Below, one piece after another: positions 5,003 through 14,752 of a DNA stretch of 14,752 nucleotides (position 1 is the first letter of the stretch; each line of letters starts with the position of its first letter). A program made the translations under genes and the position numbers. The notes beneath the pieces are model-generated. The model worked only from the letters and a program-made list of their open reading frames with translations. It was not told where the DNA came from and searched no databases. Source of the stretch: Elusimicrobiota bacterium (GTDB lineage: Bacteria > CAYTYR01 > UBA6262 > DAOVJB01); contig DAOVJB010000012.1 of assembly GCA_030673425.1 (NCBI GenBank), forward strand, positions 1-14,752. The letters are read 5' to 3'.

Positions 5003-5893
5003 TTATTTATATTGTTTTATCCTCAATATCTTCCATTTAGTTTTTCGTACTACCTGTGTTATCAAAGGCAGCAAATAAAGAAGAATCAGTAATCTCCATG
5101 CATCTCTATTACAAATATTTAACCAAAAACACTGTTTTAATAATTTTTTAGCTTGGCTATAATTTTTTTTATAAAATTGCTTCCGTGCATACAAATAGCT
5201 TTTCATAGAAGAACTTATATACTTATCCCTTATTTTTACTATCAACTCCTCAATCCCCTCTGTAACATACTTGGAGCTTAAACTATCTGGATGCACTCGA
5301 TAATAATATAAGAATTTATTTATTTTTTGCAACTTGAATTTTTCGCGCACTCTTAACCAATAATCATAATCCTCAGCTAATAAAGCTTGCGGATCATAGT
5401 TTCCAATTTCCTGATACACTTTTCTCCTATACAAAAAACAAGCACCAATACAATTTTCAATGCTTAATTCCCTGGATGAACCGACCCTTCGCTCAAATAT
5501 AATATTGTCTTTTTCATCAATTTTATAAAAATTGGCATAGACAAAATCTATTCTTTTATTAGATTCCAGAACCTTAACCATACACCCAATTGCATTAAGG
5601 GTATAATAGTTATCATCTGATGTCCAGGTTAGAAACTGGCCACTGGCATAAAAAAATCCTTTATTGAGAACCTCAGATACACCAGAATTTGTATCGTACC
5701 TTAAATACTTTATGCGAGAGTCATTATAATCTTTGATTATCCGCGGGGTGGTATCTGTGGACGCATCATCAACTATAATAAGCTCAATATTTTTGTAGGT
5801 TTGATTGAGGCAACTATCAATTGACTCTCGTATATACTTAGCGCCATTATAAGTAGGTAGAACAATGCTGACTTTTGGTAGACTTTCATTCAT
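5003..5893 (-). CDS. GT2-family glycosyltransferase
   Basis: The 296-residue product begins with the GT-A signature VSIVLPTYNGAKYI (8-21), then IIVDDASTD (39-47) for UDP-sugar binding. A SDDN motif (92-95) occupies the place of the metal-binding DxD, and LLAEDYDYWLR (171-181) carries the likely catalytic acidic residues. This is the normal layout of inverting GT2 glycosyltransferases. Beyond about residue 225 a short helical tail reads ARKQFYKKNYSQAKKLL then NICNRDAWRLL, resembling one tetratricopeptide-like hairpin, followed by a hydrophobic stretch (LLILLYLLPLI) and a basic end. This suggests membrane association. ATG 5893 overlaps the wecB stop by 8 nt, and GAGG lies 9 nt upstream, so the two are translationally coupled. 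Coupling to wecB hints that its donor could be UDP-ManNAc or a derivative; that is inference. Confidence 0.92.
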   Translation of the reverse strand: MNESLPKVSIVLPTYNGAKYIRESIDSCLNQTYKNIELIIVDDASTDTTPRIIKDYNDSRIKYLRYDTNSGVSEVLNKGFFYASGQFLTWTSDDNYYTLNAIGCMVKVLESNKRIDFVYANFYKIDEKDNIIFERRVGSSRELSIENCIGACFLYRRKVYQEIGNYDPQALLAEDYDYWLRVREKFKLQKINKFLYYYRVHPDSLSSKYVTEGIEELIVKIRDKYISSSMKSYLYARKQFYKKNYSQAKKLLKQCFWLNICNRDAWRLLILLYLLPLITQVVRKTKWKILRIKQYK

Positions 5894-7013
5894 TCTTTTC
5901 TGCCTCGCTTAGGAGCCGCTCAACAATTCTTTTACTTGCTTTTCCATCTCCGTAGGGATTTATAGCTTTTGACATACGTTGATATTTTTCTTTATCCTCT
6001 AATAATTCTATCGTTGCCTCTATGACTCTTTCAGATTGAGTTCCAACCACTTCTGCTGCTCCTGCTTCTATAACCTCAGACCGCTCGGTTAATTCACGCA
6101 ATACTAAAACAGGTTTATTTAAACTGGGAGCTTCTTCTTGCAAACCTCCTGAGTCTGTTAATATAAGATAAGACTTTTTCATTAAATGCATAAAATACTC
6201 GTAATCTAAAGGTTTAATCAGTGAAACATTTTTTATCCCCTTCAGTATTGAATATACAGGCTTTTGAACATTGGGATTAAGATGAACGGGATAAACAATA
6301 TGTACATCGGAAGGATACTTTAGGGCGATCGCCTTAATTGCATTGCAGATATTAGTTAAGGGCTCACCAAAATTCTCTCGTCTATGAGCTGTAACTAAAA
6401 TAACTTTTTTTTTATTAAATGGTATATTCTCTAAAGCAGTACTTCTTAAATCAAGATCTCTTACGGCTATATCAAGCAGAGCATCAATAACTGTATTACC
6501 GGTTACTTCTATTCTTTCTTCGGCAACTCCTTCCTGCAGAAGATTTTGTTTTGCCTGCTCAGTATGAGCGAAGCATAAATCGCTTACTGCATCAATAACT
6601 TTTCTGTTAATTTCTTCGGGGTAAGGCTGTAATTTGTTCCAGGTCCTTAAGCCGGCTTCAATATGAGCAATCTTAACTTTTTGATAAAAAGCCGCTAAAC
6701 TCGCCGCCATACTTGTAGTAGTATCCCCTTGAACCAATAAATAATTTGGTTTTTCTCTCCTAATAATTTCTCCAAGTTGCGTTAAAACTGTAACCATAAT
6801 ATACTCGAGACTCTGGTTTTCCTGCATAATATTTAAGTCATAATTGGGTTTTATATCAAATAGTTTTAAAAATTGATCTAACATCTGTCGATGTTGTGCT
6901 GTAACGCAAATGCGGCAAATGAACTTGTCGAAATGTTTATCTATCTCCTTTATCACCGGCGCCATCTTAATTACTTCTGGCCGAGTGCCAAAGACAGTTA
7001 GGATTTTAATCAT
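5886..7013 (-). CDS. wecB: UDP-N-acetylglucosamine 2-epimerase (non-hydrolysing)
   Basis: This 375-residue protein carries the full WecB signature: FGTRPEVIKMAP (8-19), QGDTTT (95-100, with D97), HIEAGLRT (117-124, with E119), PYPEEINR (130-137, with E133), VTAHRRENFG (207-216, with H210), LTDSGGLQEEAPS and the C-terminal NPYGDGKAS. These residues correspond to the catalytic acids and histidine of the non-hydrolysing family, and the length is typical. It interconverts UDP-GlcNAc and UDP-ManNAc in the cytoplasm. No WecC-type dehydrogenase is visible in the window, so ManNAc may be used directly or modified by enzymes encoded elsewhere. ATG 7013 overlaps the upstream TGA by 4 nt (ATGA), which implies coupling to the toroid-methyltransferase gene. 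Its 3' end overlaps the GT2 gene by 8 nt. Confidence 0.97.
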   Translation of the reverse strand: MIKILTVFGTRPEVIKMAPVIKEIDKHFDKFICRICVTAQHRQMLDQFLKLFDIKPNYDLNIMQENQSLEYIMVTVLTQLGEIIRREKPNYLLVQGDTTTSMAASLAAFYQKVKIAHIEAGLRTWNKLQPYPEEINRKVIDAVSDLCFAHTEQAKQNLLQEGVAEERIEVTGNTVIDALLDIAVRDLDLRSTALENIPFNKKKVILVTAHRRENFGEPLTNICNAIKAIALKYPSDVHIVYPVHLNPNVQKPVYSILKGIKNVSLIKPLDYEYFMHLMKKSYLILTDSGGLQEEAPSLNKPVLVLRELTERSEVIEAGAAEVVGTQSERVIEATIELLEDKEKYQRMSKAINPYGDGKASKRIVERLLSEAEKNE

Positions 7014-8485
7014 ATTTTTACACCTTCCCAGGCAATAAATAATCCGTCAGGATGAGAAAGTTTTCCATATGCTATTGGTTTGTAATGCGCTTTTACGCCA
7101 TATTTATTGAGTATCTTTATTATCTCTTCTGGTTTAAACCATTGCTCCCAAGGTTTCAACTTTAAAACTCCAAGCTTAGCAATATTTTTATCTATAATAA
7201 TTATTTTCCCGCCAGGTTTAAGAATCCTAACCATCTCTTTTATAGCGCTTTTAGTCATTAGTGCGTGCTCAAGTGCTTCTACGCAGTAAACACAATCAAA
7301 AAAGGCATCTGGATACCTTATATTAAGTATACTTCCGCAGAGAGTTTCTATTCCCTCGGGACAAAAATTGAGCAGTGTCTCTGAAATATCTAAGCCATAA
7401 AGTTGGGTATTTGGAAATCTCTTCTTCAAAATCCGAAGAAATCTTCCCTTACCACAGCCGATTTCAATTACCTTCTTACCGTCCAAACTTCCGAAAAAAG
7501 ATAATATTTCTTGCACCCTCCCGTCTTCTGCCTCTATTGATTCAGGGAATAGATTAACTTCTTTGTTAAATGCCGTTTTTATTTTCCAATAATGGGCATC
7601 GAGAAAAAATTTTACTGCCCAGCTTATTTCCTCTTTAGAAAAATAGTTTGCTCTTCTTCCATAACTGCCATAAAATCCTCCTGTTCTATTTTGAATCTTC
7701 TCTAAGTAATTAATTGCTTTATCAGCAAATTCTCTCATGCCCAGTTTATATCCTATGACAGCAAACTGAGCTACGCCGGTAGAACATATCCAAGATACAT
7801 CCTTATGTGCTGGAACGCTCCCATCTTTTTTTTGCAATGCTGCCACCTGTTCCATTCCTACTTTTACTAATTCTATTTCTCCCAAATCATAAAGCGCCTC
7901 AATTATATACGCATAAAAATGAGAGAGTGCGTTAAATTCCACTAAATCCTTTCTATTCTTATAATATTCTAAAACACGGTATGCAGCATCAATATATTTT
8001 GGTTCATTAAGTTTTTCCCCTGCTTCGATAAGTGACGATAAAACATAAAGATGAATTCTATCATCGGCAATGTTTCCCCACATTTTGGTTGAAGGAGTCG
8101 ATAGCCTTCCATCAGGTTGAGTTTGAGTAAGAACCCAGTTACAAGCTTTTCTTAAAGATTGTTCAACCTCGGGTAAATCATCTAAAGCTACTATGAAACC
8201 TCGAATTACCTGGCCGGTATCAAATGTATAAGGTACTCCATCTGGCGCAGAAAAGGAGCCATCGTTATTCTGTTGAGTTAAAAGCCACAAAGCTAAATCT
8301 TTTGCAAATTCTTTCTCTCCCCATTGATACAAAGTGGGAATGGTGTAGCCAGTGACCTCGAGGTATGGAATTTTTCGTTTAGAGTTAACTGCAATTCCCT
8401 GTTCAGAGATGGCATTTGCTTTAATCCATCGTATCCCTTTTTCGCAATTTAAAATTATTGATTTCTCATTCCTAAACCAGAACAT
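7010..8485 (-). CDS. Alpha/alpha-toroid domain fused to class I SAM methyltransferase
   Basis: The 491-residue product has two parts. Residues ~10-300 form repeated helical units, each ending in a Q-x-x-DG-type turn: LLTQQNNDGSFSAPDG (68-83), VLTQTQPDGRLST (118-130), AALQKKDGSVPA (215-226) and LEKIQNRTGGFYGS (261-274). This resembles squalene-cyclase or prenyltransferase-like toroid repeats, but I see no DxDD cyclase motif. Residues ~335-491 are a class I methyltransferase: VIEIGCGKGRF (339-349), YGLDIS (363-368), CVEALEHAL (401-409), ILKPGGK (421-427). An AAGGA site lies 5 nt before ATG 8485, and the gene starts 1 nt after the upstream stop. It ends in a 4-nt overlap with wecB. Each domain is recognisable, but the role of the toroid is unknown. 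It could bind or process glycan, as several polysaccharide-active enzymes use this fold. The tight link with wecB suggests a shared N-acetyl-sugar pathway. Confidence 0.88.
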   Translation of the reverse strand: MFWFRNEKSIILNCEKGIRWIKANAISEQGIAVNSKRKIPYLEVTGYTIPTLYQWGEKEFAKDLALWLLTQQNNDGSFSAPDGVPYTFDTGQVIRGFIVALDDLPEVEQSLRKACNWVLTQTQPDGRLSTPSTKMWGNIADDRIHLYVLSSLIEAGEKLNEPKYIDAAYRVLEYYKNRKDLVEFNALSHFYAYIIEALYDLGEIELVKVGMEQVAALQKKDGSVPAHKDVSWICSTGVAQFAVIGYKLGMREFADKAINYLEKIQNRTGGFYGSYGRRANYFSKEEISWAVKFFLDAHYWKIKTAFNKEVNLFPESIEAEDGRVQEILSFFGSLDGKKVIEIGCGKGRFLRILKKRFPNTQLYGLDISETLLNFCPEGIETLCGSILNIRYPDAFFDCVYCVEALEHALMTKSAIKEMVRILKPGGKIIIIDKNIAKLGVLKLKPWEQWFKPEEIIKILNKYGVKAHYKPIAYGKLSHPDGLFIAWEGVKI

Positions 8486-8486
8486 T

Positions 8487-10313
8487 TTAATCCTTCTTTT
8501 TCAATATCAAACATAAAATAGAATAACCAGAATTTGGAACAGATGGATGGTCAAAATAACAATCATCTTCCTTTATTTTTTTAACAATTTCAAAATTATT
8601 TTTTCTAATCCATTCCTCAAACATCTTCAATTTCAAAGAATGCGGATGTAATTTATTGGTAGGTAGATTTAATTGCTCAAGAGAATAAAAAGTCCCTCCT
8701 CTCTTAAGTATTCGAATCCCTTCTTCAAGGACTTTCTCAAGAGATACCACATGCTGGAGAACATTATAAATGAAAACACAATCAGCAGTTTCGTCAAGTA
8801 GAGGTATCTCTTCACCAGGTCCTTTTATTCTCTTTATTGTTTTGTCAGCACTTTCTATCGGCAAAGGATCTACCGCAATTTTCTCTTTTGCTTTAAGTTT
8901 TGTTAAAATACCAATGGGGCCTGAACCAATATCTACAAGAACTTTATTGCCAAAATCCTGATTTTGTTTTAACTCAAAATACCTTAAAACTGTATTTAGC
9001 CATTTATTATCATTCGAATCAGGATTTTCTTTAAGCCAATTCTCCCACCATTTTTTCTCACCTTTTTGAGCAATAAACCACTTTAATCTTTGTTTTTTTA
9101 GCCGCCAAACAGCTTTAAACTTTATTCCAAACAAATTTTTCAAACGCCGATAGATTTTTTTGATTTTAATACTTTTTAGATATCGAAAGTTATTTTTGAT
9201 ATAATTTTTCGCTCCACACAACAAAATTTCAAAATATGAAAAATTGACGTTATTTCGCCTTACATCCAAAGAAATGTTCTTATGGAACCAATTCATAACA
9301 TCTTCTGGATTGACGCTATATTTTTCTACAATATTATTTGAATTAATATCTCCGATTTTAATCTGATAATTAAAAATTAAATCATAAAGAAAATTATTTT
9401 TTGCTTTTATATCTACTATAAAAGCATCAATACTTCTAATCTTCTGTATGTCATCATGAGCTTCCAATAAAATATTTTTCCCTGTAAATATGCCCTCTCC
9501 GAAAGCTCCAACTGTCTTATCGTACAAAAGAGACTCCAGCAATACAGTTGAGTTAATGCCAACTACCCACTTAGAATTTTTTATTAATAAATGCGTATTC
9601 ACATCTTTTGCAACCTCAACGTTATTCCATCGGGAACTATAATTTTGCTTATCCAACGGATGCGGTCTAATTACTATCTTCTCGTTGAAAAATGTTTTGC
9701 TCACAAAATCAACCAATTCATCCATTTTTTTGAATCTTTTAGAAAAATTTGTAATCTGAGAATCATTTTCTAATTGCAATGGGACAAAAATATAATCTTT
9801 CAAAATGAATCTATCATCGTTTATCAAAGTTATCTGTTTGTATTTACTAATCTTATCCCGCAGCCTCTTTCTTTGCTCATCACTGATATCTGGGCTTTTA
9901 CGCTCCCGTATTGAAGATAAATAATTTATCCCTTTTGTATCCAAATAGCAATGTTCCCTTTGAGGAAAAAAACCTACTTCACAAAATATTACTTTTCTAT
10001 GTGTCTTTACTTCATTAATTATATTCCGTCCTACTACAATTCCATTCCACCAAAAGATCGAATCTGGATTATAATTGTTAATAATTCTGAAAATTTCTGC
10101 GTCCCATTTATAATGTTTTCCGGTAATTATTATATCCTTACTGATAAATTCTTTGATGCTGTTATCAGAAACCCACCTATTGTATTCAGAACCTATTGAA
10201 GAAGTTGTACAACAATAGAGAGATTGTCCATGAGTTATACTGATTAAACTCTCTACTATTGGCATCATATACATCAAATGGATAGAATTATTGCCGACTA
10301 CTAAAATTTTCAT
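8487..10313 (-). CDS. KpsC/KpsS-like glycosyltransferase fused to SAM methyltransferase; candidate chain terminator
   Basis: The 608-residue protein has three parts. Residues 1-345 resemble the capsule KpsC/KpsS (Kdo-transferase-like) fold: an E-x-GF..Q....LD..GIN block (112-130), IVIRPHP (213-219), and KWVVGINSTVLLESLL (248-263) followed by FGEGIF. Residues 369-423 form a very basic linker with 20 Lys/Arg and one Glu in 55 residues, rich in Trp and other aromatics and suited to lying on a membrane. Residues ~455-608 are a methyltransferase with VLVDIGSGPIG (458-468), AVDP (480-483), NVLQHVVSLEKV (517-528) and ILKRGG (535-540). The gene starts 21 nt after the upstream methyltransferase and has no clear ribosome site. 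The family match for the N-terminal half rests on short motifs, so the donor (Kdo or other) is uncertain. Its place near an exporter with a carbohydrate-reading domain suggests it caps the finished chain. An ordinary transferase that modifies an internal residue remains possible. Confidence 0.8.
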   Translation of the reverse strand: MKILVVGNNSIHLMYMMPIVESLISITHGQSLYCCTTSSIGSEYNRWVSDNSIKEFISKDIIITGKHYKWDAEIFRIINNYNPDSIFWWNGIVVGRNIINEVKTHRKVIFCEVGFFPQREHCYLDTKGINYLSSIRERKSPDISDEQRKRLRDKISKYKQITLINDDRFILKDYIFVPLQLENDSQITNFSKRFKKMDELVDFVSKTFFNEKIVIRPHPLDKQNYSSRWNNVEVAKDVNTHLLIKNSKWVVGINSTVLLESLLYDKTVGAFGEGIFTGKNILLEAHDDIQKIRSIDAFIVDIKAKNNFLYDLIFNYQIKIGDINSNNIVEKYSVNPEDVMNWFHKNISLDVRRNNVNFSYFEILLCGAKNYIKNNFRYLKSIKIKKIYRRLKNLFGIKFKAVWRLKKQRLKWFIAQKGEKKWWENWLKENPDSNDNKWLNTVLRYFELKQNQDFGNKVLVDIGSGPIGILTKLKAKEKIAVDPLPIESADKTIKRIKGPGEEIPLLDETADCVFIYNVLQHVVSLEKVLEEGIRILKRGGTFYSLEQLNLPTNKLHPHSLKLKMFEEWIRKNNFEIVKKIKEDDCYFDHPSVPNSGYSILCLILKKKD

Positions 10314-10334: not shown

Positions 10335-11030
10335 TTATAATTTCTTCGCAATGGCAATATTGAATAAACCATTCCAACCCTCTAAAATTTCTTCCTCCTC
10401 TCTATTGTATTGTGTATATCTACCTAAAATCTCAAAACCATTCGAAACGAATAATGCGTCAAACTCTGAAGGAGTATAATGTCTCAAATGAAAAGGAAAG
10501 CTCTTTTTATTAAATGGCTGTGTATCTTGGTTGGGAACTGATACAATAAAGCGTCCATTCCTCTTTAATTTTTTGTAAAAAAGTTTTATAAGTTTTTCCC
10601 CATCTACATGTTCAACTGTCTCAAAAGAAACTATACAATTAAAGTATTCATTAGGAATATCCAAATGAAAAATATCTCCTAATCTATATATTATCTTCTT
10701 ATCAAAATAATACTTTCTAGCAAATTTTATCGCTTTTCTCTCTTTATCAACAGCGATAATCTTAGATAACTGAGTTTCTTTTGACAAAATATATGATCCG
10801 TAAGCTACACCAGATGCACAGTCTAACACAACATCATCTTTATTTACAAGCCTACAAGCAAACTTATATCTTCCTACATGGTCTTTTCTAATCCCATCTA
10901 TGGTGGGTGATACCTGTCTTTCGCCTTTCCCACTATAATCTTTTTTAAATATATTTCTTATTATTGTATGAAATAGGTAGAAAATCGTTTTAATTAACTT
11001 TTTAAATTCATATAGCAAATTATCAATCAT
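10335..11030 (-). CDS. Class I SAM-dependent methyltransferase with amphipathic N-terminus
   Basis: This compact 231-residue methyltransferase has motif I VVLDCASGVAYGS (67-79), in which the usual G-C-G is replaced by C-A-S-G. The acidic residue is in AVDKE (about D95), the post-I region is CIVSFETVEHV (132-142), and LKRNGRFIVSVPN (155-167) follows. The segment HLRHYTPSEFDALF (181-194) is common in methyltransferases of surface-glycan loci. The first ~30 residues (LLYEFKKLIKTIFYLFHTIIRNIFKK) alternate hydrophobic and basic residues, as in a membrane-surface helix. The ATG lies 8 nt after the wzt stop and has no strong ribosome site, so coupling to wzt is likely. Its place directly after wzt makes it an alternative chain-terminating methyltransferase to the fused protein downstream. 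The substrate cannot be read from the sequence. Confidence 0.88.
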   Translation of the reverse strand: MIDNLLYEFKKLIKTIFYLFHTIIRNIFKKDYSGKGERQVSPTIDGIRKDHVGRYKFACRLVNKDDVVLDCASGVAYGSYILSKETQLSKIIAVDKERKAIKFARKYYFDKKIIYRLGDIFHLDIPNEYFNCIVSFETVEHVDGEKLIKLFYKKLKRNGRFIVSVPNQDTQPFNKKSFPFHLRHYTPSEFDALFVSNGFEILGRYTQYNREEEEILEGWNGLFNIAIAKKL

Positions 11031-11038
11031 AAACTATA

Positions 11039-12223
11039 TTATGAAATAGAACCTTCTATTTCATAAGGAGCATTTCCAATTCTTTTACCTTCAATACGGA
11101 AAATCCAACCATTATGAACCCAAAGTAAATGCTCAATTCGATTTTCAGATGTAACAATAAGGGACATATGATAAGTTCCTGGATTCAGCTGAAGCGGACC
11201 TAACGAAATATGAAACTTCTGGCGACCCTTACCAAGCTTCAAACGAACACCATTAAACCAACTACTCCATTCTGCAACAAACTCACCTGAGGAAGAAAGG
11301 AAACATATTATCAACGTCATTTGTTCGGCATCAACTTCTGAGTCTAGTTCGAGGTTCATTTCCAAAGGTTCACCTGTAGTCAAGATATACTCATCATTCT
11401 CTACTTTTGTTTTGATATCACATACTACAAGATACACACCATCAGAATGAATGTTGGTCTTTTCTCTTTCAAAGCTAGAGAAGTAGCGTTGAATAGCCTT
11501 CTCTGTCGCACCCAGAAAAATCGGCTGGGCATTATTGAGAAGCATACATTTGGAAGATATGCGTGCGATAGTAGGCATATCATGTGAAACAATAACAACC
11601 GTACAATTATTTTGTAATTCTGCTATTTTGTTATAACATTTCGCGCGAAAGCCAACATCCCCCACCGCCAGTACCTCGTCCACTAACAAAATATCCGGTT
11701 CACAATGAATCGCTATTGCAAATCCTAACCTCACATACATACCTGAAGAATAATATTTTACTGGAGAATCTAAAAAATCTCCAATATCTGCAAAATCAAC
11801 AATCGAATCATATTTTTTATTTATTTCTTTTTTGCTCATACCAAGAATTGCGCCGTTAACATAAATATTCTCTCTTCCTGTAAGCATCGGATGAAACCCC
11901 GCACCAATCGCTATAAGGACACCTGCTCTTCCTCTAACCTCTACTTTTCCCTTATCAGGCATAAAGATACCATTGAGCATCTTTAAAACTGTAGTTTTTC
12001 CTGCACCATTTGGGCCAATAATGCCCAGTGTTTCTCCTTTTTTTAGTTCAAAGGAAACATCATCAACTGCCCAGAATTCACCTTCTCTTAATTCTCCGGG
12101 CTTTGAACTCAAACCGACCAAATCCCTTGCTACATCCCGGACTCCATATTTTATCGAACGACCGAGACTGCGGCAGAACTTTTTGGAAACTCCCTCTACC
12201 TTTATTAATACATCGCCACTCAT
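11039..12223 (-). CDS. wzt: O-antigen/polysaccharide ABC exporter ATP-binding protein with C-terminal glycan-reading domain
   Basis: The 394-residue protein has an ABC nucleotide-binding domain: Walker A GPNGAGKTT (70-78), signature YSSGMYVRLGFA (158-169), Walker B DILLVDEVLAVGD (177-189) and the H-loop His in IVSHD (H214). These are hallmarks of the Wzt/KpsT/TagH group. After about residue 250 an extra ~140-residue, beta-rich domain follows, with segments such as EPLEMNLELDSE, MTLIICFLSSSGEF and LQLNPGTYHMSLIV. This matches the C-terminal carbohydrate-binding region of Wzt proteins that recognise a modified non-reducing end before export; KpsT-type proteins lack it. The start ATG abuts the wzm stop with GAGG 6 nt upstream, so the two subunits are translationally coupled. 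It drives ATP-dependent transfer of undecaprenyl-linked glycan across the cytoplasmic membrane with Wzm. Confidence 0.95.
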   Translation of the reverse strand: MSGDVLIKVEGVSKKFCRSLGRSIKYGVRDVARDLVGLSSKPGELREGEFWAVDDVSFELKKGETLGIIGPNGAGKTTVLKMLNGIFMPDKGKVEVRGRAGVLIAIGAGFHPMLTGRENIYVNGAILGMSKKEINKKYDSIVDFADIGDFLDSPVKYYSSGMYVRLGFAIAIHCEPDILLVDEVLAVGDVGFRAKCYNKIAELQNNCTVVIVSHDMPTIARISSKCMLLNNAQPIFLGATEKAIQRYFSSFEREKTNIHSDGVYLVVCDIKTKVENDEYILTTGEPLEMNLELDSEVDAEQMTLIICFLSSSGEFVAEWSSWFNGVRLKLGKGRQKFHISLGPLQLNPGTYHMSLIVTSENRIEHLLWVHNGWIFRIEGKRIGNAPYEIEGSIS

Positions 12224-13072
12224 CTATACCCTCTCTGCCATCCTGGCTTCTACAAGGTGAAATATTCGCCAGGATATTAAAAATATTACCAGCGAAATCA
12301 AGGAAGCCGACAAAAATTGGGATGGTTCCTTCATATATCCGAAAATGACAAGGTCGCGAGCACCTGTAACCAGAACACTAAGGGGATTATAAATGTTTAA
12401 GGTAGCCAAAAAGCCGCTTGAGGGGGAAGGATAAAGAACAGGGGTAAGAAAAAGCAGGAAAGTTGTCATTAAGGTTACAATATATGTTATATCTCTCATC
12501 AATACATTTAAAAGGGAGAGCAAAAACCCTAATCCCAGGGTTAATAACATCAAGGGAATAAGAGCCAAAGGAAGCAAAAGTGTACTCCACGAGGGTATTA
12601 CTTTATAGATAGCAAAAACGACAACAAGAAGTCCTATGCGCACCAGAAATCCAAATATTGACTGCGCCAGAGCAGCAATGACCAGAGATTCCTTGGGAAA
12701 ATTTATCTTTACTACCATACTTCCGCCCTGCAGAATACTATTAGTGCAAGCGGTAAGTCCGGTAGCAAATAATTGCCAAATAGAAAGTCCCAGCAACGCA
12801 AAAACCGGGTAGGGAACATCCGTTTTCCCAATATTCATCACACCAGCCCTATTTAAGAAGATAAAGGTTCCAACCATCAATAAGGGCATAATGAGCGCCC
12901 AGAGAATGCCTAAAACAGTCTGTTTGTACTTCGCCAAAAAATCACGGACAAAAAGCCGCCAGATAAGCTCCCGACTGCTTATGAGTTCATCAAACATTTC
13001 GCGCCATATAACAAACCAACCCATTTTGAGCTGAGCATCCGGCTGGTAAAGTTTTACCTGCTTATTATTCAT
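12224..13072 (-). CDS. wzm: Polysaccharide ABC exporter permease (ABC-2 type)
   Basis: The 282-residue protein is an integral membrane subunit of the Wzm/TagG/KpsM type. A cytoplasmic amphipathic lead SRELIWRLFVRDFLAKYKQT (33-52) is followed by LGILWALIMPLLMVGTFIFL, the classic start of the first membrane span. Further spans lie at about 90-110, 130-157, 163-190, 196-214 and 252-273, six in all. The N-P motif in IYNPLSVLVTGARDL (227-241) before the last span is also typical. It forms the channel through which the lipid-linked glycan is pulled by Wzt. AAGGAG lies 7 nt before ATG 13072, the best ribosome site in the window. By eye its base composition is clearly richer in G+C than the genes at 8487-11030, so the exporter and downstream genes may have different histories. 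Confidence 0.94.
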   Translation of the reverse strand: MNNKQVKLYQPDAQLKMGWFVIWREMFDELISSRELIWRLFVRDFLAKYKQTVLGILWALIMPLLMVGTFIFLNRAGVMNIGKTDVPYPVFALLGLSIWQLFATGLTACTNSILQGGSMVVKINFPKESLVIAALAQSIFGFLVRIGLLVVVFAIYKVIPSWSTLLLPLALIPLMLLTLGLGFLLSLLNVLMRDITYIVTLMTTFLLFLTPVLYPSPSSGFLATLNIYNPLSVLVTGARDLVIFGYMKEPSQFLSASLISLVIFLISWRIFHLVEARMAERV

Positions 13073-13157: not shown

Positions 13158-14480
13158 TTATCCTATGGCCCAAGCGGGAAGAAAATAAACAGTAGTTTCG
13201 CCTTTCTTAACCTTATCGAAATAATCTTTAGTAATCACTATCCCCGCCTTTGGCTTATAATTCTGAATAAAGGCGCGCATACCTGATGGAATATTGGCAT
13301 AGCTCATTTCCTGAAATTTACATTCAATAGGAATAATCTGATTCGTTTCCACGATAAAATCAACCTCTGCCCCTGCTTTGGTTCGCCAAAATTTTATCTC
13401 TTCATTTGTTTTTAGCACAGTGTTTATCATACAGAATAGATAATTTTCAACTATTTGGCCTAAATCAGGCCTTAAATCCGGTAAACTAAAGGCCTTAATG
13501 CTGCTATTGCGCAAACCAATATCATAAAAATATACCTTAGGCATTTTAACAATTTCTTTACGTTTATTCTTAAAGTAAGGGGGAATGGTTTTAAGGATAA
13601 AGGTATTCTCAAGAATAAAAAGATAATTTTTTAGAGTCAGATAGCTGATTTTTAAGCCAGCAGTCAGGTTGTGGTCATTGATTAAGCCGCCTATTTGCAA
13701 AGAAAGCATCTTCACCAAATTATTAAAGGCAGTTATATCCTTAACTGTAAAGAGTTGGTTTATATCCTTTCTTACATAGGTAGTATATATCTCATTTATC
13801 AATTCTATCTTTTTTGAAATACCCACTTCTTTGGTAATTGCCGGATATCCGCCATAAGTAATATATTCTTTGAATTCTCCAATAAGTTCTTTTTGGTGAA
13901 TTGCAAGTATATTATTAAATTTTGGAAATTTACCATCAAGGATACTTCTGGCCCGAACATTATCAACAACCCCTAAAAGGTCAGCTCTTTCCTTAAATAA
14001 AAGATGTTCAGGAAAACTTAATGTGTTTAGTTCAAAAACCACTTTTCTACCTACTAAGGAATCTTTAAATTTGCGCCTTATCTCTAAAGTAGATGAACCT
14101 GAGGCAATAACCTTAATGTTTTTGTAATGATCAACAAGCAGTTTTAAAAAATTAGAAGGATTTTTAAGATACTGTATCTCATCTAAAAAAACATAGACAC
14201 GGCGGTTTAAGTCTGCCCCCTTTGATTTTAAAAACTTAATAAAAAACTCAATACCGCTATTCAGAAGATCTAATATCTGAAAATCCTCAAGATCATAGTA
14301 AAAAATGTTCGTTTTATTTTTTGGGTAAAGTTCTTTTATAAGAAGATAAAGAAGGCAGGTTTTTCCAACCTGGCGGGAACCGGTAATAAGAATCAGTTTA
14401 TTATCAGGGAGCCACTTCAAGATTTCATTTAATTTCCAGCGAGGAATAAGGTCTAATTTTAATATAGCCGAAATTTCCAT
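13158..14480 (-). CDS. AAA-family ATPase with DUF4143 C-terminal domain
   Basis: The 440-residue protein matches the widespread AAA_14/DUF4143 family. Walker A is GSRQVGKT (34-41), Walker B is VYVFLDEIQ (95-103), and the SGSS segment (127-130) is in the sensor position. In the C-terminal half, YGGYPAI (209-215), ENYLF (345-349), AEVDFIVE (371-378) and PIECKF (384-389) give the D...E-x-K pattern of a PD-(D/E)xK nuclease-like fold. Proteins of this family are common and often accessory; their cellular role is not established. Nothing links it to glycan synthesis except position, between the ligase-like gene and wzm. ATG 14480 has no ribosome site, while TATAAA ends 6 nt before it, so a leaderless transcript is possible. 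The first protein segment ISAILKLDLIPRW is normal for the family, supporting this start. Confidence 0.93.
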   Translation of the reverse strand: MEISAILKLDLIPRWKLNEILKWLPDNKLILITGSRQVGKTCLLYLLIKELYPKNKTNIFYYDLEDFQILDLLNSGIEFFIKFLKSKGADLNRRVYVFLDEIQYLKNPSNFLKLLVDHYKNIKVIASGSSTLEIRRKFKDSLVGRKVVFELNTLSFPEHLLFKERADLLGVVDNVRARSILDGKFPKFNNILAIHQKELIGEFKEYITYGGYPAITKEVGISKKIELINEIYTTYVRKDINQLFTVKDITAFNNLVKMLSLQIGGLINDHNLTAGLKISYLTLKNYLFILENTFILKTIPPYFKNKRKEIVKMPKVYFYDIGLRNSSIKAFSLPDLRPDLGQIVENYLFCMINTVLKTNEEIKFWRTKAGAEVDFIVETNQIIPIECKFQEMSYANIPSGMRAFIQNYKPKAGIVITKDYFDKVKKGETTVYFLPAWAIG

Positions 14481-14557: not shown

Positions 14558-14752
14558 TTAATTCTTTACCCCGTTAGAAAAAGGTTTTCTAACCGAGTTT
14601 ACTCTGCAAATTTCCGGCAGCATCATTACTATCGCCGCCAGAAACCAGAATGGTTCCATAATACGCACGATAATAAAAGTATTGGCGGAAAAAGAATGAA
14701 TAAGCAATCCCATAAATCCGGCCAAAAACCCTAAAGTCAAGCCTTGAGCCCA
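14558..14752 (-). CDS. O-antigen ligase/polymerase-like membrane protein, C-terminal fragment
   Basis: The frame is open from the right edge to a TAA at 14558 and encodes 64 residues beginning WAQGLTLGFLAGFMG. It contains a membrane span, then LIHSFSANTFIIVRIMEPF, then a second span WFLAAIVMMLP and a basic tail ending SVRKPFSNGVKN. A short outside loop with HS..ANTF..IRIMEPFWF before the last span is familiar from the end of O-antigen ligase (WaaL/Wzy_C superfamily, PF04932) proteins. A TTG at 14738-14740 could make a 60-residue ORF, but the frame continues upstream without a stop, and the sequence reads as the end of a larger protein. If a ligase, it would attach the exported glycan to its acceptor at the outer face of the cytoplasmic membrane. 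A polymerase cannot be excluded from the fragment. Confidence 0.72.
   Translation of the reverse strand, partial: WAQGLTLGFLAGFMGLLIHSFSANTFIIVRIMEPFWFLAAIVMMLPEICRVNSVRKPFSNGVKN

Follow-up and report, generated by a model that had tools for sequence, protein, structure and literature searches.

A Kdo transferase-like protein fused to a methyltransferase beside an ABC glycan exporter in an Elusimicrobiota bacterium, and a candidate composite Kdo-plus-methyl cap

The stretch of DNA analysed here (the window; 14,752 nt, with the contig ending at position 14752) comes from an Elusimicrobiota genome assembly of 1.32 Mb in 199 contigs, which is 88% complete. It holds a transporter cluster whose transcript order is wzm, wzt, a gene for a 231-aa methyltransferase and a gene for a 608-aa fusion protein, and five methyltransferase domains are encoded within the window according to Pfam. 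The features that matter for the argument are the following, with the kind of evidence in brackets:

12224..13072 (-), Wzm, ABC-2 membrane subunit (Pfam)
11039..12223 (-), Wzt, ABC ATPase with a C-terminal Wzt_C domain at residues 265-378 (Pfam)
10335..11030 (-), 231-aa GERQV-type methyltransferase, proposed second half of the capping system (family, gene position)
8487..10313 (-), 608-aa fusion of a KpsC/WbbB-type transferase, a basic linker and a class I methyltransferase
9279..10313 (-), transferase domain of the fusion, residues 1-345 (AlphaFold2 model, Foldseek and VIA matches)
9978..9980 (-), Glu112, predicted general base corresponding to WbbB Glu158 (E in 27 of 29 alignment rows)
9762..9776 (-), QLEND, residues 180-184, the QXXXD nucleophile motif (Q180 and D184 invariant in 29 rows)
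9657..9668 (-), RPHP, residues 216-219, the (K/R)xHP CMP-binding motif (all 29 rows have H218 and P219)
9045..9209 (-), basic linker, residues 369-423 (composition; low-confidence helices in the model)
8569..8987 (-), C-terminal class I SAM methyltransferase domain, residues about 443-581 (Pfam, profile, fold match)
5886..7013 (-), UDP-GlcNAc 2-epimerase of the cluster (Pfam; also found in the cluster of locus L111, described below)

Two further reading frames flank these genes. The next gene after the fusion, 7010-8485 (-), encodes 491 aa with a squalene-cyclase/TED-like alpha-toroid in its N-terminal part and a methyltransferase in its C-terminal part. On the other side, immediately before wzm, an ORF of 440 aa, 13158-14480 (-), resembles P-loop ATPases and is apparently unrelated to the glycan cluster.

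As an initial annotation of this DNA had held, the fusion is encoded two genes downstream of a Wzt with an extra C-terminal domain, with the reservation that the Wzt_C match (E 8e-6) falls just under the curated cut-off of the family. Similarity of this Wzt to the cap-binding domain of the Aquifex Wzt is weak (E 0.06), and the tryptophan that lids the methyl pocket of the Aquifex protein is present here and in all six domains compared, so that it does not discriminate. The same annotation read the Wzt neighbourhood correctly but passed over the intervening methyltransferase gene (10335-11030) as a likely part of the system.

The ORF of the fusion starts with ATG and encodes the 608 residues that had been claimed for it. 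Two Pfam families match above their curated cut-offs, namely Capsule_synth (PF05159; residues 148-280, E 1.1e-10) and Methyltransf_11 (residues 461-543, E 5e-10), the latter confirming the C-terminal methyltransferase of the initial annotation. The KpsC/S-like motifs listed there are also in place (RPHP at 216-219, NST at 254-256 inside KWVVGINSTVLLESLL, and FFPQREHCYLDTKGIN at 115-130), whereas QLEND at 180-184 had been overlooked. An additional match of Osmo_CC to part of the transferase was set aside as a chance match. We could likewise locate the 55-residue linker with 20 basic residues: at 369-423, the densest basic stretch of that length in the protein, there are 20 K/R and a single D/E, and at least 20 K/R per 55 residues was reached in 37 of 5000 shuffles of the protein. 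In the model this linker forms low-confidence helices (pLDDT about 30-60) that are possibly membrane-associating. It probably keeps the enzyme at the membrane, and a basic tail that associates with the membrane is found in KpsC, too (PMC10148158). The model of linker and methyltransferase together is weak (pLDDT 67), yet its fold matches class I methyltransferases.

An important aspect of this protein is how closely its N-terminal module resembles characterised Kdo transferases. In an alignment of 29 rows Gln180, Asp184, His218, Pro219, Asn254 and Ser255 are invariant, and the profile of this alignment, compared with the PDB, retrieves WbbB (E 6.6e-22) and KpsC (E 1.7e-19). The profile alignment places residues of the 608-aa protein opposite Glu158, Asn179, Gln228, Asp232 and His265 of WbbB, with Glu112 as the counterpart of Glu158, Gln180 of Gln228, Asp184 of Asp232 and His218 of His265. 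Published work on this group assigns the catalytic nucleophile to QXXXD, CMP binding and the acid to the HP motif, and the base to the glutamate (PMC10148158, PMC9587256, PMC12887879); from sequence, Asp184 is thus predicted to be the nucleophile, Gln180 the carboxylate binder and His218 the general acid. One difference concerns WbbB Arg163, which contacts O4 of Kdo and is replaced here by Pro117, a proline common to most of the nearest relatives.

The structural models agree with this picture. The AlphaFold2 model of the transferase has a mean pLDDT of 76 and a pTM of 0.79, with pLDDT of about 90 or more over most of residues 110-320 and poor values for 15-68. Foldseek ranks WbbB first (E 1e-12), followed by KpsC and then KrkA, and by VIA the Z scores of KpsC (18.7) and WbbB (17.5) stand above those of unrelated folds, none of which exceeds 11.8. 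The model of residues 1-345 thus contains the modified GT-B fold of retaining beta-Kdo transferases, with low confidence for residues 15-68. The initial annotation had proposed precisely this comparison with KpsC (GT107) and WbbB (GT99), and had named an unrelated fold or missing active-site residues as evidence against itself; we found the fold to be alike and the active-site signature to be kept. In a tree, the transferase belongs to a separate group from KpsC and KpsS; support for this is moderate, many branches are long, and WbbB is represented by a short, long-branched fragment. Because the WbbB/KpsC fold is accompanied by conserved motifs of published role, it is very likely, as judged from sequence and model, that residues 1-345 transfer a CMP-activated ulosonic acid with retention.

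The source genome offers a matching donor. It has a KdsB-like gene (PF02348, 208 bits) and a KdsA-like gene that is split across two contig ends (L009/L012 = C113; L011 = C78), so that the Kdo operon was split by the assembly; reading by eye adds a KdsC-like phosphatase and an RfaE-like kinase. No clear NeuB was found in this genome; the single weak match falls on a probable DAHP synthase gene, to which the KdsA family matches as well, and a second cytidylyltransferase match looks like GlmU. Given KdsA-, KdsB- and KdsC-like genes and no clear NeuB, CMP-Kdo is the only CMP-ulosonate with genes seen in this 88% complete assembly, which fits the Kdo-like donor proposed initially.

Relatives of the transferase are located on plasmids, in one phage record, on viral contigs and in bacterial genomes. 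They were found by alignment-based searches, single-sequence searches of genome contigs and viral contigs having returned none, and four other genomes of the same phylum yielded none. Some belong to other systems, such as KpsS-type capsule loci and a likely flagellin-glycosylation island (L042:1182-11480) in which a transferase and a GERQ methyltransferase accompany Maf and a CTP_transf_3 gene. In Phycisphaera, an 882-aa ORF (L031:7776-10424) combines a Kdo-transferase-like domain with a GT25 domain and a sulfotransferase. The viral contigs L021-L027 and the 462-kb phage LR756500 (L005) carry Kdo-transferase-like genes, several of them directly adjoining a methyltransferase gene, and the viral genes tested had no match in PHROGs. 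The initial annotation regarded homologues lying mostly in loci that lack a C-terminally extended Wzt as evidence against capping; most relatives indeed show no Wzt with a cap-binding domain within the fetched flanks, but many of these flanks are short, among them those of planctomycete, Bacteroidota and proteobacterial relatives, so that the objection holds in part.

What recurs around these relatives is a methyltransferase. Across 40 relative loci, nine of 15 methyltransferase genes immediately adjoin the transferase, against 2.8 expected (permutation P 0.0006), a test based on mechanical ORF calls, on a profile for which methyltransferases of the window served as seeds, and on loci that are phylogenetically non-independent. 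Five of the nine are homologues of the 10335-11030 gene, and a planctomycete locus adds another, so that these homologues stand beside the transferase in a phage record, two viral contigs, Aliiglaciecola and Catenovulum (Alteromonadales) and the planctomycete; most of them contain the motif GERQ(V/I)...H..RY. The recurring partner of the transferase is therefore a separate GERQV-type methyltransferase of the 10335-11030 family.

The exact fusion of the window, a transferase with this C-terminal methyltransferase, was not found elsewhere among the relatives. The search for it beside wzm and wzt did reveal another transferase-methyltransferase fusion in a different phylum: on a Pseudomonadota chromosome (L111, 9245-11860), a single 871-aa protein joins a methyltransferase, a hexapeptide-repeat domain and the transferase. 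This locus runs from rml-like genes to wzm, wzt (Wzt_C E 2e-15) and, directly after it, the 871-aa protein, with the UDP-GlcNAc 2-epimerase further down. It thus shares with the window the two modules, the order wzm-wzt-cap enzymes and the epimerase, and differs in having one polypeptide, the extra hexapeptide-repeat domain and no C-terminal methyltransferase. The family of the 10335-11030 methyltransferase also occurs, as a GER[FY] type, in four further genomes (L145-L148), where its gene immediately follows that of a Wzt with a strong Wzt_C match, the same place as in the window. Unlike in the window, no Kdo-type transferase was seen in the stretches fetched from these genomes, and in the two proteins read (L117/L145 and L133/L146) the methyltransferase heads a long coiled coil. 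Known terminators carry a coiled-coil ruler (PMC11231755), and by analogy a methyltransferase with a coiled coil after Wzt is in the position, and has the build, of such terminators.

Comparison with characterised systems places the window between several of them. The GT99 domain of WbbB (Raoultella terrigena / Klebsiella O12) resembles the 608-aa protein in fold, QXXXD, HP and base glutamate as well as in the Asn that contacts O8 of Kdo in WbbB; moreover, its setting is that of a beta-Kdo terminator (as proposed here) for an ABC-exported O antigen, with a Wzt bearing a cap-binding domain. On the other hand, WbbB is fused to polymerising transferases rather than to a methyltransferase, and no coiled coil was recognised in the 608-aa protein by a crude heptad scan, where the linker model gives low-confidence helices. 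KpsC and KpsS share the fold, the catalytic motifs and the Pfam family, but what they make is the lipid linker at the reducing end. WbdD and the K. pneumoniae O7 terminator, which act on O antigens exported by a Wzt bearing a cap-binding domain, likewise include a methyltransferase, yet there it is coupled to a kinase and the product is methyl phosphate; in the window the partner is a Kdo-type transferase, and Pfam matched no WbdD-like kinase domain in either the 608-aa or the 231-aa protein.

Terminal caps decide the length and the export of many bacterial surface glycans. Our reading of the locus builds on computed evidence of five kinds, namely the fold, the active-site signature, the CMP-Kdo genes, the gene order and the recurring pairing. 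A Kdo-type transferase-methyltransferase fusion adjoins a second methyltransferase and a Wzt with a cap-recognising domain, and for this reason we consider a new combined cap somewhat probable: the 608-aa protein and the 10335-11030 methyltransferase would form the capping, chain-terminating apparatus of an ABC-exported glycan and give it a composite Kdo-plus-methyl cap. With CMP-beta-Kdo as donor and a covalent intermediate at Asp184, the N-terminal module would extend the growing chain at its non-reducing end by a single beta-Kdo or Kdo-like residue, at which point elongation would stop. The terminus would be methylated by the GERQV methyltransferase, possibly also by the fused one, with the methyl group sitting on the new Kdo or on the adjoining sugar, and the C-terminal domain of Wzt would recognise the combined cap, such that only finished chains would be exported. 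In this scheme we infer the donor and the acceptor, that the transfer ends the chain, in which order the steps follow one another and where the methyl group goes.

The initial annotation had gone further in proposing that one protein both adds a Kdo-like residue and methylates it. The first part agrees with the fold, the signature and the Kdo donor; methylation by the fused C-terminal domain is not supported in that form, as no relative of the transferase carries that domain (443-581) and the recurring methyltransferase is the separate one. Its broader suggestion, that both known cap chemistries meet in one polypeptide, has a counterpart in the L111 fusion beside wzm and wzt, except that L111 fuses the 10335-11030 family instead.

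The main rival is a cap made of methyl only, added by the 10335-11030 methyltransferase, with the 608-aa protein inserting an internal or side-branch Kdo-like residue and its fused methyltransferase decorating internal sugars. We regard it as rather unlikely. The four genomes with a methyltransferase of the same family after Wzt, and no transferase in the fetched stretch, speak for it; the Aquifex Wzt recognises a methylated neutral sugar (PMC9445017), and retaining Kdo transferases also build repeats, as KrkA does (PMC12887879). With five methyltransferase domains in the window, decoration by methylation is moreover to be expected. Against this stands the fact that the transferase and the 10335-11030-type methyltransferase are neighbours or fused in several phyla, in L111 directly beside Wzt, and that WbbB, the solved protein nearest to the transferase in sequence, acts as a terminator (PMC9587256).

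Other readings change the enzyme's substrate or its place in the pathway. It is improbable that the transferase uses a CMP-activated ulosonic acid other than Kdo, although the loss of WbbB Arg163, the existence of a related pseudaminic acid transferase (Acinetobacter KpsS1; PMC12887879) and the one relative that has a CTP_transf_3 gene and a Maf protein nearby, in an island resembling those for flagellin glycosylation, would all suit such a donor; the Kds-like genes of the source genome speak for Kdo, and its sole NeuB match is weak and of a kind common to the KdsA/DAHP family. Very improbable is a KpsS-like initiator, an enzyme that would begin the chain by transferring Kdo onto lipid, in the manner of group 2 capsules. 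The Capsule_synth match and a weak similarity to KpsS-like proteins encoded beside KpsC-like ones are compatible with it, but this match is the only one in the source genome (88% complete), which leaves no KpsC partner, and the ATPase bears Wzt_C, unlike two shorter ATPases tested beside relatives. These two points disfavour an initiator, and the tree, too, sets the protein apart from KpsS and KpsC.

We therefore return to the composite Kdo-plus-methyl cap as the preferred reading. Kdo caps and methyl caps are each known chemistries (PMC9445017, PMC11231755). A literature search that did not cover the 2019 Glycobiology census of glycan terminators returned no paper on methylated Kdo, and a methylated ulosonic-acid cap is not among the cap chemistries of the literature compared, within that same coverage. 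Tentatively, and with a good deal less assurance than for the locus itself, we suggest that a Kdo-type transferase and a dedicated methyltransferase might together make a methylated ulosonic-acid cap that serves as a composite export signal, and that they form a two-gene unit found across several phyla and phages. Should the pairing hold, Kdo and methyl, both known as cap chemistries, would be united in one system, and the glycan's cap would be directly testable with a few soluble domains. A QXXXD transferase beside a GERQ-type methyltransferase would then also provide a search signature for uncultured phyla and phages.
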